DNA of 64,000 nucleotides from Salipiger sp. IMCC34102 (lineage in GTDB: Bacteria; Pseudomonadota; Alphaproteobacteria; Rhodobacterales; Rhodobacteraceae): assembly GCF_004145405.1 (NCBI RefSeq), contig NZ_SELQ01000001.1, positions 558,001 through 622,000 of the forward strand, read 5' to 3'. Numbering within the stretch: the first letter of the stretch is position 1; every line of letters starts with the position of its first letter. A model generated the notes under the pieces. That model had not been told where the DNA came from, did no database searches, and was given only the letters and a program-made list of their open reading frames with translations. Both the position numbers and the translations under genes were made by a program. Below, in pieces: positions 39,013 to 43,907 of this stretch.

Positions 39013-39040
39013 GGCAAAAACGCATTCGATGCGTCATCGG

Positions 39041-39072
39041 ATAGCCTCCTGCGAAAGCAGGGGGCTATTTTC
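39041..39072 (+). terminator. Intrinsic terminator after rplW, inside the S10 cluster
   Basis: ATAGCCTCCTGC and GCAGGGGGCTAT form a 12-bp stem (one wobble) with a GAAA tetraloop, followed by TTT and a further T. Confidence 0.9.
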
Positions 39073-39190
39073 GTATGAAAACAAGAATATCGGCGATCTC
39101 GGCAAAAAGTTTGGTCGCCATTACTTGTCGTATCTGAAGGTAGATCCCACATGACTGGCGTGCAAAACGCACTAATTTAAGGAATCCATT

Positions 39191-39379
39191 ATGAGTAAAA
39201 CACTTAAGCCAGGTCAGAGGGCTCCCGGTTCCGGTCAAGTAAAGATTGTCGGACCGAGAGGGGGAGATACAGGTCAGGAGCGGACCACGACCAAAGGTAA
39301 TCCACTCCCCCCGACGCCAAAACCAGGCCAACGTTACGTTCCAGTAGATGGAACGAAAAATAAGTCTGGTTTCAAGTAA
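39191..39379 (+). CDS. Small YjzC-like protein
   Basis: A 62-residue basic protein with no hydrophobic segment. The layout K-P-G-Q-R-A-P-x-S-G-Q-V, then V-G-P-R-G-G-D-T-G-Q-E and N-P-L-P-P-T-P-K-P-G-Q-R-Y, resembles small proteins annotated as YjzC-like in bacteria; function is unknown. AAGGA lies 8 nt before the ATG. Base composition is far more AT-rich than the ribosomal genes on both sides. An AT-rich promoter-like ATGACT-N16-TAATTT lies at 39151-39178. Confidence 0.6.
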   Translation: MSKTLKPGQRAPGSGQVKIVGPRGGDTGQERTTTKGNPLPPTPKPGQRYVPVDGTKNKSGFK

Positions 39380-39438
39380 AACATTCAGCTTCGCGCAGGC
39401 GGAGCTGATCCCGTTTTGCGTCTTTTAAGGTTGCTTTG

Positions 39439-40062
39439 ATGGACTTTGCAGTAGCGCAGCTTGCGTTGATATTTCTTCCAGGCCTCATTTGGGGAAGTAT
39501 CGATGCAAAATACGGTTCTGGGGCCAAAGCTACTCAAACTGTAATGCTGATAAGGTCGTTTGCTTTTGGTCTAGCGTCATACTCGGTACTGTTTGTTGTC
39601 TACCTCATGTTGGATATTCCTTTCGGGTATGATGAACTTCCAAGGAATATTGCCGAGCTAGATTTAATACAACTCAGAGATGAAATTGCGTTTTCAATAC
39701 CAGTTGCATTCATTCTATCAATCGTTTGGCTGTGGGTGGTCCGCTTAAGGTGGCTAGCAAGATTCTTGAATTGGTGTGGTGCGAGCAGGCGCTATGGCGA
39801 CGAGGATGTTTGGAGTTTTGCGCTTAATTCTAGCATACGTAGCGTCGAATATCTGCATCTCCGTGATTTACAGGGCGGGTTCGTTTATGCTGGTTGGATC
39901 AACGTATTCTCAGAAACTGAGGAGTATAGAGAGTTGCTACTGCGTGATGCGATTGTGTATGATCTTGAGGGCGAAGAAATTTCGAGAGCGCCATTCTTGT
40001 ATTTATCGAGGCCCAAGCAGGATATTTGGATAGAGTTTCCAATAGAGCCAGAAGGAACATGA
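39439..40062 (+). CDS. DUF6338-like membrane protein
   Basis: A 207-residue protein with three predicted membrane helices (about 5-20, 33-55 and 84-106) followed by a soluble cytosolic-type domain of about 100 residues containing G-G-F-V-Y-A-G-W-I-N-V-F-S, Y-R-E-L-L-L-R-D-A and I-W-I-E-F-P. The ordering helix-pair, helix, then V-Y-A-G-W-I-type domain matches my memory of DUF6338 proteins, which have no known function. The ATG at 39439 is behind AAGG. Codon use is AT-rich (about 43% GC by eye in places), unlike the neighbours, so recent transfer is likely. The next small gene begins 3 bp after its stop. Confidence 0.65.
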   Translation: MDFAVAQLALIFLPGLIWGSIDAKYGSGAKATQTVMLIRSFAFGLASYSVLFVVYLMLDIPFGYDELPRNIAELDLIQLRDEIAFSIPVAFILSIVWLWVVRLRWLARFLNWCGASRRYGDEDVWSFALNSSIRSVEYLHLRDLQGGFVYAGWINVFSETEEYRELLLRDAIVYDLEGEEISRAPFLYLSRPKQDIWIEFPIEPEGT

Positions 40063-40065
40063 GCC

Positions 40066-40209
40066 ATGACTGATCGAGAAGGAAAAGATCCCGGTAGGGA
40101 TCATCGCGGGATCGTAAATGACGGCAGTATGAAAAAGGGCGGGCTAAATACCACGCAGCAGGTCAGTGAGCGACCTCCAGCGCCGACGCCAACCAAGCCT
40201 AAGAAATAG
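40066..40209 (+). CDS. Small 47-residue Lys/Pro-rich peptide
   Basis: Begins 3 bp after the DUF6338-like gene with AAGGA 10 nt before the ATG, so it is very probably translated from the same message. The peptide is hydrophilic: an acidic-basic start (M-T-D-R-E-G-K-D-P-G-R-D-H), a middle K-K-G-G-L-N-T-T-Q-Q and a tail P-P-A-P-T-P-T-K-P-K-K. I do not recognise it. It has no helix, signal or cysteine. The P-T-P-x-K-P tail echoes P-P-T-P-K-P in the small protein at 39191. Confidence 0.5.
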   Translation: MTDREGKDPGRDHRGIVNDGSMKKGGLNTTQQVSERPPAPTPTKPKK

Positions 40210-40237
40210 ATTAAATTGTTGAGTAGCGGCTGACCAC

Positions 40238-40266
40238 TTGCCACCCGCCCCCAACCCCCCTATACG
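40238..40266 (+). promoter_or_regulatory. Promoter restarting the S10 cluster at rplB
   Basis: TTGCCA (40238-40243), 17-bp spacer of mostly C, TATACG (40261-40266). The transcript would start near 40273, and a GC hairpin at 40282-40303 (GCCCCGGGA/TTCCGGGGT) follows. Confidence 0.68.
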
Positions 40267-40389
40267 CCCAACACTCACCGCGCCCCGGGATTCGTTCCGG
40301 GGTGCTGTGCTTTGAAAACCGGGCACCTTCGGGGGCCTTCACATCAGGGGCCGCATGCCGGCTCCGCCAAGCAAACGGAAGAAGCTAAC

Positions 40390-42624: not shown

Positions 42625-43038
42625 ATGCTGCAACCGAAACGCACCAAATTCCGCAAGATGCACAAGGGCCGCATCAAGGGCGAAGCGAAGGGCGGGTTCG
42701 ACCTGAACTTCGGCACCTTCGGCCTGAAGGCCCTCGAGCCCGAGCGGATCACCGCACGCCAGATCGAAGCCGCCCGCCGGGCCATGACGCGTCACATGAA
42801 GCGTCAGGGTCGCGTCTGGATCCGGATCTTCCCCGATCTGCCCGTCACCTCCAAGCCGGTCGAAGTCCGGATGGGTAAAGGCAAGGGCTCGGTCGATTTC
42901 TGGGCCGCCAAGGTCAAGCCCGGCCGCGTGATGTTCGAGATCGACGGCGTCGGCGAGGACGTGGCCCGCGAGGCTCTGCGTCTGGCCGCGATGAAGCTGC
43001 CGATCAAGACCCGCACCGTGATGCGCGAAGACTGGTAA
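42625..43038 (+). CDS. rplP: 50S ribosomal protein L16
   Basis: A 137-residue protein at the A-site of the large subunit. It has [12 protein letters not shown]-x-W-I-R-I-F-P-D, and R-M-G-K-G-K-G-S-V with the arginine that can be hydroxylated in some bacteria. A terminator follows, so the normal rplP-rpmC coupling is broken. Confidence 0.97.
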
Positions 43039-43286: not shown

Positions 43287-43907
43287 ATGAGCAACATCAG
43301 ATCCCTCTTCGTCACCCGCCTCTACCAGGCGCCGCTTTCGGCCAAGGGCAAACCCGTCGATCCCGACGAGCTTGCGGCCACCTGTCTTTCCATCGCCGAG
43401 GACGACGAGGCGGGGCAGGACTGGTGCGAGCAGAACGATTTCCCCGGCTACACCTCCTATGCCTCGCTCACGGATCTCGCCTGGCGGATGCCGATCTTCA
43501 AGACGGTGAAGAAGGCGCTCGACAAGCACGTGAAAGCCTTCGCCGAGGATCTGGCCTTCGACCTGGACGGCAAGAAGCTGAAGTTGGAAGACCTCTGGAT
43601 CAACATCCTGCCCGAAGGCGGCATCCACACGGCGCATATCCATCCGCACTCGGTGATCTCGGGGACGACCTATGTCGCGATGCCGGAGGGCACCTCTGCC
43701 ATCAAGTTCGAGGACCCGCGCCTGCCGATGATGATGGCCGCCCCCGGACGCCGCAAGGACGCGGCCGAGATGCTGCAGCAGTTCACCTATGTCGCGCCGG
43801 TCGTGGGCGACGTGCTGCTGTGGGAGAGCTGGCTGCGGCACGAGGTGCCGATGAACATGGCCGAGGAAGACCGGATCAGCGTCAGCTTCAACTACAGCTG
43901 GGGCTGA
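43287..43907 (+). CDS. TIGR02466-like putative 2-oxoglutarate/Fe(II) oxygenase
   Basis: A 206-residue protein with the double-stranded beta-helix pattern of TIGR02466: L-E-D-L-W-I-N-I-L-P-E-G-G-I-H-T-A-H-I-H-P-H-S (His114, 117, 119 and 121), then G-D-V-L-L-W-E-S-W-L-R-H-E-V-P (His185) and E-D-R-I-S-V-S-F-N (Arg196). These give the His ligands and the Arg for a 2-oxoglutarate-type oxygenase, but the acidic second ligand is not clear. Substrate unknown. It begins S-N-I-R-S-L-F-V-T-R-L-Y, as in other family members. Lies in the rplP-rpmC insert. Confidence 0.78.
   Translation: MSNIRSLFVTRLYQAPLSAKGKPVDPDELAATCLSIAEDDEAGQDWCEQNDFPGYTSYASLTDLAWRMPIFKTVKKALDKHVKAFAEDLAFDLDGKKLKLEDLWINILPEGGIHTAHIHPHSVISGTTYVAMPEGTSAIKFEDPRLPMMMAAPGRRKDAAEMLQQFTYVAPVVGDVLLWESWLRHEVPMNMAEEDRISVSFNYSWG

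Follow-up and report, generated by a model that had tools for sequence, protein, structure and literature searches.

The window analyzed here is a 64,000-nt stretch of Salipiger sp. IMCC34102 (contig NZ_SELQ01000001.1, positions 558,001 to 622,000, forward strand), in which the ribosomal protein genes rplW (L23; 38716..39012, + strand; open reading frame [ORF] with homologues in relatives) and rplB (L2; 40390..41232, + strand; ORF with homologues) stand to the left and right of an insertion site. They are separated by 1377 nt of low GC content, in which a strong hairpin comes first after rplW, three AT-rich genes come next, and a promoter followed by an L2 leader leads into rplB. The three genes, all on the + strand, encode a YjzC-like protein (62 aa), a DUF6338-like protein (207 aa, ATG at 39439), and a peptide of 47 aa, with the last two genes 3 nt apart. 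Their GC contents (0.51, 0.45, and 0.54, respectively) compare with 0.62 for rplW and 0.66 for rplB, and 500-nt windows give 0.45-0.57 across the cassette versus about 0.61-0.69 over the flanking 2 kb to the left and right. In ORFs, spacing, and composition shift, this is the AT-rich three-gene cassette that the original prediction, made from the sequence alone, had placed between rplW and rplB.

That prediction also named a terminator after rplW and a promoter restarting rplB. At the first position lies a terminator-like strong hairpin (39039..39070, + strand; −24.3 kcal/mol, fold z −6.5, none of 200 shuffles equally stable), and relatives with filled gaps have, by eye, a similar hairpin after rplW; its U-run, however, has four residues only, and a consensus terminator scan of the window did not list it. 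The promoter (TTGCCA-N17-TATACG; 40238..40266, + strand) is present as proposed and is followed by the L2-Alphaproteobacteria ribosomal protein leader RF03142 of Rfam (40321..40387, + strand; 56.1 bits against a gathering threshold of 37.8, E 6.6e-12). Between promoter and leader is a second hairpin with a GATTCGT loop region (40276..40309, + strand; fold z −4.5), a host part whose GATTCGT recurs upstream of rplB in relatives. A TTGCC-type −35 element with a TAT −10 element was found 149-195 nt 5′ of rplB in all eight genus members for which rplB was found, whatever the cargo upstream. The hairpin after rplW and the promoter are thus host parts of a variable site, and the leader, too, belongs to the host.

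The site was surveyed in 24 genomes of the family, the window's included, by reading rplB with the DNA 5′ of it (L037-L060; longer pieces, L067-L075). The rplW-rplB gap is 27-157 nt in 10 of them and 789-5517 nt in 9, window included, and in the remaining 5 rplW is absent from the stretch read upstream of rplB and is located elsewhere. Cargo is unrelated between the nine filled gaps (no shared blastp match at 1e-6 among their ORFs), the sole matches between cargo ORFs being among three of the five genomes in which rplW and rplB are split. In class outgroups, the gap is 2-31 nt (six fetched out of fifteen with rplB). The comparison of this gap in relatives, which had been suggested as a check, thus shows that the rplW-rplB junction is a variable site in the host family, a defined place for cargo within a ribosomal operon. 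A search of mainly open-access journal literature found no report of insertion in the rplW/rplB operon of Rhodobacteraceae. The five with a break in the S10 cluster between rplW and rplB are L067-L069, L073, and L074 (G294, G291, G292, G304, and G298); in G304, the cluster halves are 139 kb apart on opposite strands, and in the other four rplW is on other contigs of draft assemblies. One filled gap (L043) carries a single ORF of 271 aa with, by eye, the look of an HNH-type nuclease.

The first cassette gene (39191..39379, + strand) encodes the 62-aa YjzC-like protein and behaves as an independent mobile passenger. The protein matches the unnamed family phrog_3202 (E 4e-10), and four plasmid homologues of 60-66% identity are annotated as YjzC family proteins; these agree with its predicted YjzC-like label, although it has no Pfam or NCBIfam match at an E value of ≤1. 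Matches occur on 36 plasmid records, with copies of 60-73% identity on plasmids of Rhodococcus, Arthrobacter, Aminobacter, Klebsiella, E. coli, and Nostoc, among others. The identity to the Rhodococcus plasmid protein (L100) is 72%, across phyla, and on small Klebsiella and E. coli plasmids (L103, L104) the gene adjoins genes for an HTH regulator and for a peptidase of the ImmA/IrrE family on the other strand. A phage origin of the gene was considered and rejected, its weak support being one Brochothrix phage in two records, with no match in viral contigs.

The original prediction had joined all three genes in one functional module, a membrane protein with two small partners, and the cassette offers some grounds for it: the genes are neighbors on one strand, their GC is below that of the ribosomal genes, and both small proteins contain a short PPTP or APTP stretch. 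Against it, the YjzC-like profile matches at 1 of 54 DUF6338 loci, namely the window's own, so the co-occurrence elsewhere that had been proposed as a check failed. The 36 YjzC-like plasmid records do not overlap the 7 DUF6338 plasmid records, and none of 12 YjzC-like loci (seven of them annotated plasmid stretches) has a DUF6338 or peptide match. The profiles of the two small families do not match (hhalign probability 0.2%), and a common origin of the two small proteins was rejected. A three-gene module is thus highly implausible, and we rejected it on the absence of the YjzC-like gene from 53 of 54 DUF6338 loci; the sequences place that gene as a separate mobile gene, independent of the DUF6338 pair. 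The part of the prediction that linked the second and third genes stood: on the comparisons below, they make up one conserved two-gene unit that moves between bacteria and that, in the window, landed in the variable rplW-rplB site beside the unrelated YjzC-like gene.

The second gene (39439..40062, + strand) encodes a DUF6338-family protein of 207 aa with three predicted membrane helices and a predicted Sm-like barrel. The cassette proteins have no Pfam, NCBIfam, or PADLOC match at an E value of ≤1, so the proposed DUF6338 label holds through relatives and not for the window protein itself: a relative 61% identical to it scores 35.7 bits with PF19865 (cut-off, 26.5), four of six relatives tested exceed that cut-off, and 30 of 37 aligned members match the model at an E value of ≤5. 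Plasmid relatives are annotated DUF6338, a family to which Pfam gives no function. Profile-to-profile comparison of the alpha and gamma types aligned 202 columns (E 1.8e-46).

The gene is rare, at about 1-5% of genomes. With the window protein or its alignment as a query, it was found in 6 of 295 family, 4 of 398 phylum, and 3 of 289 class genomes (own genome counted), and with the PF19865 model in 15 of 299 phylum genomes. Within the genus, genome G290 had no match with a query able to find the window gene, and none of four other filled rplW-rplB gaps that were read contains a DUF6338 gene; the eight other genus genomes were searched with PF19865, which misses the window's own gene, so that genus-wide absence is not deducible from them. 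Seven plasmid records carry DUF6338 genes, among them a 4.2-kb plasmid of Oceanimonas, and IMG/VR contributes ten loci. That of a Yersinia phage has relatives in 2 of 5426 E. coli genomes, and the pair on a Citrobacter plasmid had no relatives in E. coli genomes. Sparse occurrence in family and phylum genomes and carriage on plasmids and phages support the horizontal arrival proposed originally; a low GC content by itself argues only weakly for recent transfer, because at 28 of 29 loci the DUF6338 gene exceeds the adjoining DNA in AT content. Broken DUF6338 genes, which may be assembly errors, lie beside intact peptide genes at L017, L020/L021, and L132.

The third gene (40066..40209, + strand; held-out profile E 2.2e-13) encodes the 47-aa partner peptide, with a KGGxN motif and a Pro/Lys-rich tail. 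Alpha-type peptides follow the pattern EG..xKGGxN...RPPPPxPxKP, and several gamma-type peptides end in P-K-[IL]-P-P-x-K; the peptides are about 40-90 residues long and lack predicted structure over most of that length. A short ORF overlaps or abuts the DUF6338 3′ end (start within 28 nt) at all 49 loci with readable downstream DNA, window included (27/27 in L001-L029, 15/15 in L079-L093, and 7/7 in L107 and L111-L116; L012 and L022 were left out because their contigs end too early). These ORFs were recognized partly by eye, the start codons for several peptides were picked by eye, and several loci are near-duplicates.

To avoid circularity, a profile built from half of the loci was used to search the other half (3,498 ORFs of 30-140 codons), with L012 and L022 (contig ends) and L021, L080, L093, L111, and L113 (duplicates or near-duplicates) omitted. 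It matched at an E value of <0.01 in 34 of 44 loci, in halves that are not fully independent, since relatives fall in both. All 34 matches are at the DUF6338 3′ end except a second copy in L085, 594 nt downstream; adjacency was established by script for 28 and by hand for L005, L016, L020, L082, and L087 (earlier start codon or frameshifted DUF6338 end). The ten misses comprise nine gamma-type or divergent loci and L084, and their best, insignificant hit was the adjacent ORF in three and lay elsewhere in seven. Among divergent PF19865 loci, a Pro/Gly-rich ORF follows the gene, by eye, in 12 of 13 (some loci of one genus; L134 and L136, from genomes already counted, and L137, a second piece of L132, were omitted). 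In the divergent locus L135, the DUF6338 frame is open with no peptide, and in L132 it is frameshifted and the following ORF, further on, has only 17% Pro plus Gly.

Searches of whole genomes or records returned the DUF6338 neighbor as the best peptide match in nine of nine; a 321-aa frame gave the only other match, a weak one (E 0.0035). The window peptide was the one match in its own genome at an E value of ≤0.001 (at most 30 candidates scored). Across the family, at least 3 of 218 genomes matched (at most 30 candidates per genome scored), two at DUF6338 loci and the third weakly (E 7e-4), within a frame of 294 aa. Three closely related locus pairs point, by their codon changes, to constraint on the peptide at the protein level: 24 synonymous versus 2 amino-acid changes between L004 and L005, dN 0.048 with dS 0.30 between L009 and L010, and dN 0.047 with dS 0.36 between L111 and L112.

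In Pseudomonas stutzeri ATCC 14405, a DUF6338 gene has been described in a predicted operon with three proline-rich proteins of <50 aa, seen by mass spectrometry (PMC10433244), the one paper on DUF6338 that the literature search found; a DUF6338 gene with small proline-rich partners is also the arrangement found here. The small proteins are given there as without conservation beyond P. stutzeri, and de novo genes are suggested (PMC10433244), whereas the partner peptide described here occurs across phyla; the operon is set beside the window by its description, not by sequence. The resemblance suggests that the operon type of these possible de novo genes is found across phyla. The DUF6338 protein itself was not detected there, which says little, because membrane fractions were outside that analysis (PMC10433244). 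Two peptide copies at single DUF6338 loci (L085, L020, and L021) recall the three P. stutzeri small proteins.

The setting of the pair was read from the neighbors of 28 loci, scanned jointly (105 proteins; PADLOC best 25 of 77 families and Pfam best 25 of 105 families listed), and from nine annotated records, giving 37 loci. A recognized defense system or P2 slot is present at at least 8 of the 37, two of them near-identical, as a raw count. The systems are type IIG restriction-modification (R-M) at L005 and L008; IetAS, ending 13 nt (L023) and 9 nt (L089) before DUF6338; Gabija and type I R-M beside DUF6338 in E. coli ET776; and a caspase with a gene annotated TIR on the Citrobacter plasmid, whose TIR-annotated protein had no PADLOC match. 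DUF6338 also occupies the gpA-gpQ slot of a Yersinia P2-like phage (L093), and L112 was counted by near-identity, the one Phage_GPA match in the neighbor scan being taken as its neighbor; this slot of P2-like phages is reported to be an anti-phage hotspot (PMC9122126). A Vibrio plasmid array with DUF6338 also holds toxin-antitoxin and DUF3265 genes. We take this array to be integron-like. Relatives, whose position near defense or mobile genes had been suggested as a check, do lie on plasmids and phages and, at these loci, close to defense genes; others stand beside housekeeping genes, e.g., purA, PNPase, groEL, and squalene-hopene cyclase, so that gaps of this sort serve the pair as they do other small cargo. 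Taken together, the sequence records describe a rare and mobile pair, carried on plasmids, P2-like phages, and an integron-like array. At two distant loci, IetA, IetS, and the DUF6338 pair run head to tail (L023, 2138-6414; L089, 1175-5387), perhaps as an extended IetAS system. Type IIG models were also matched by a third protein among the neighbors, and mad3 was partially matched at L014; neither is among the eight.

An AF2 model of the DUF6338 protein (37 sequences; pLDDT, 84.4) has three long helices with shorter ones behind them (3-26, 33-57, 76-103, and 105-112), followed by a five-stranded barrel at 138-199, as in the Sm/LSm fold. Foldseek gave no match against the PDB at an E value of ≤0.001 (best, 1.2e-3); in a second structural comparison, the best match was Sm/LSm-type (Z 9.4, 72 of 74 residues, rmsd 2.5), and the best 50 matches listed are all chains of snRNP, spliceosome, or Sm/LSm entries, so that the absence of MscS among them carries no weight as evidence. 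By sequence, neither LSM nor MscS was among the best 25 of 26 Pfam families listed in a profile search of the DUF6338 family. A search for PDB sequence relatives gave six profile hits (best E 0.14), with no Sm or MscS chain among them. The product is predicted to sit in the membrane by three helices, with an Sm/LSm-like barrel after them; its C-terminal domain resembles Sm/LSm proteins in predicted fold and differs from them in being fused to membrane helices. In BFVD, one match had an E value of <0.001, an uncharacterized protein of Siphoviridae sp. ct96x5 (A0A8S5PTE5; against the whole window model E 2e-6, 11% identity, TM 0.46-0.48, rmsd 6.8), which may be a remote relative from a phage.

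That the two genes are almost always adjacent, overlap, and move jointly argues for products that act together. Our leading reading, to which we give somewhat less than an even chance, is that they are a membrane effector and a peptide regulator, toxin-antitoxin-like, acting in conflict with phages or other elements. The two products would form a complex in which the peptide docks by its proline/lysine tail on the DUF6338 protein, holding it inactive or tuned; once a phage or rival element disturbs this hold, the membrane protein, perhaps as a ring, since Sm-like domains form rings, would then act on the membrane, so that the cell is stopped or killed or the invader blocked. In a tethered model, the block of the last 16 peptide residues has pLDDT of 77 and 80, and residues 216-240 are below 50; these values, read by themselves, might fit docking of the tail. 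The broken DUF6338 genes beside intact peptides would fit a protective peptide, if they are not assembly errors. Tight packing, a small partner, mobility, and, at some loci, nearby defense genes liken the pair to type II-like toxin-antitoxin or two-gene abortive infection modules, from which it differs in that the small gene comes second and an Sm-like barrel is part of the putative effector, a membrane protein.

Mechanosensitive channels suggest another role. MscS has three helices and then an Sm-like beta domain, and the helix order of the DUF6338 model and its Sm/LSm-type fold matches could also describe a ring-forming membrane channel or a tension or ligand sensor, a miniature MscS-like protein for which the peptide is a plug or assembly factor and whose business is envelope stress, not phages. 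A miniature MscS with a minimal portion of the Sm-like fold is reported from Trypanosoma cruzi (PMC12334622). The DUF6338 protein, however, shows no sequence match to MscS, which is missing from the six PDB profile hits and the 25 Pfam families listed, has no room for the larger cytosolic cage, and comes with a partner peptide; its rarity and its travel on mobile elements are more in keeping with an accessory conflict gene than with an osmotic valve, and we consider this role rather unlikely. The best fold matches, as chains of RNA-binding Sm/LSm assemblies, would also allow a barrel that binds RNA like Hfq or archaeal Sm proteins, with the pair localizing or controlling RNA at the membrane. 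Sm proteins have a uridine-binding Asn in their motif, at whose place, by eye, the DUF6338 alignment has an invariant acidic residue (E165), and a shared fold shows no function; RNA binding seems improbable. We consider it very unlikely that the peptide is secreted or antimicrobial and that DUF6338 serves as its exporter or immunity protein: the peptides are short and proline-rich, and an antimicrobial role is mentioned as a possibility for the P. stutzeri small proteins (PMC10433244), but by eye the 27 aligned peptides have no hydrophobic leader, and conservation in them falls on the KGGxN motif and the proline stretch.

Returning to the effector-regulator reading, we raise tentatively, as something that may well prove wrong, its broader form: the pair may be a new and widespread membrane immune or conflict device, a membrane-anchored ring of Sm-like barrels, with a tiny, disordered Pro/Gly-rich peptide, often missed by annotations, as the ligand that sets its state; its carriers would be plasmids, integron-like arrays, and P2-like phages. 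A search of mainly open-access journal literature gave two unrelated papers and no work that joins Sm-like/transmembrane proteins, an anti-phage role, and proline-rich small proteins. For DUF6338, a family of no assigned function, the analysis adds a partner that is nearly always there, a predicted fold, and a mobile, partly defense-linked setting, all of which make it directly testable.

Elsewhere in the ribosomal cluster of the window, a TIGR02466 family protein (43287-43907, E 1.6e-84), from a family of the 2OG-Fe oxygenases, is encoded just 3′ of an ORF (42625-43038) that we take to be rplP.
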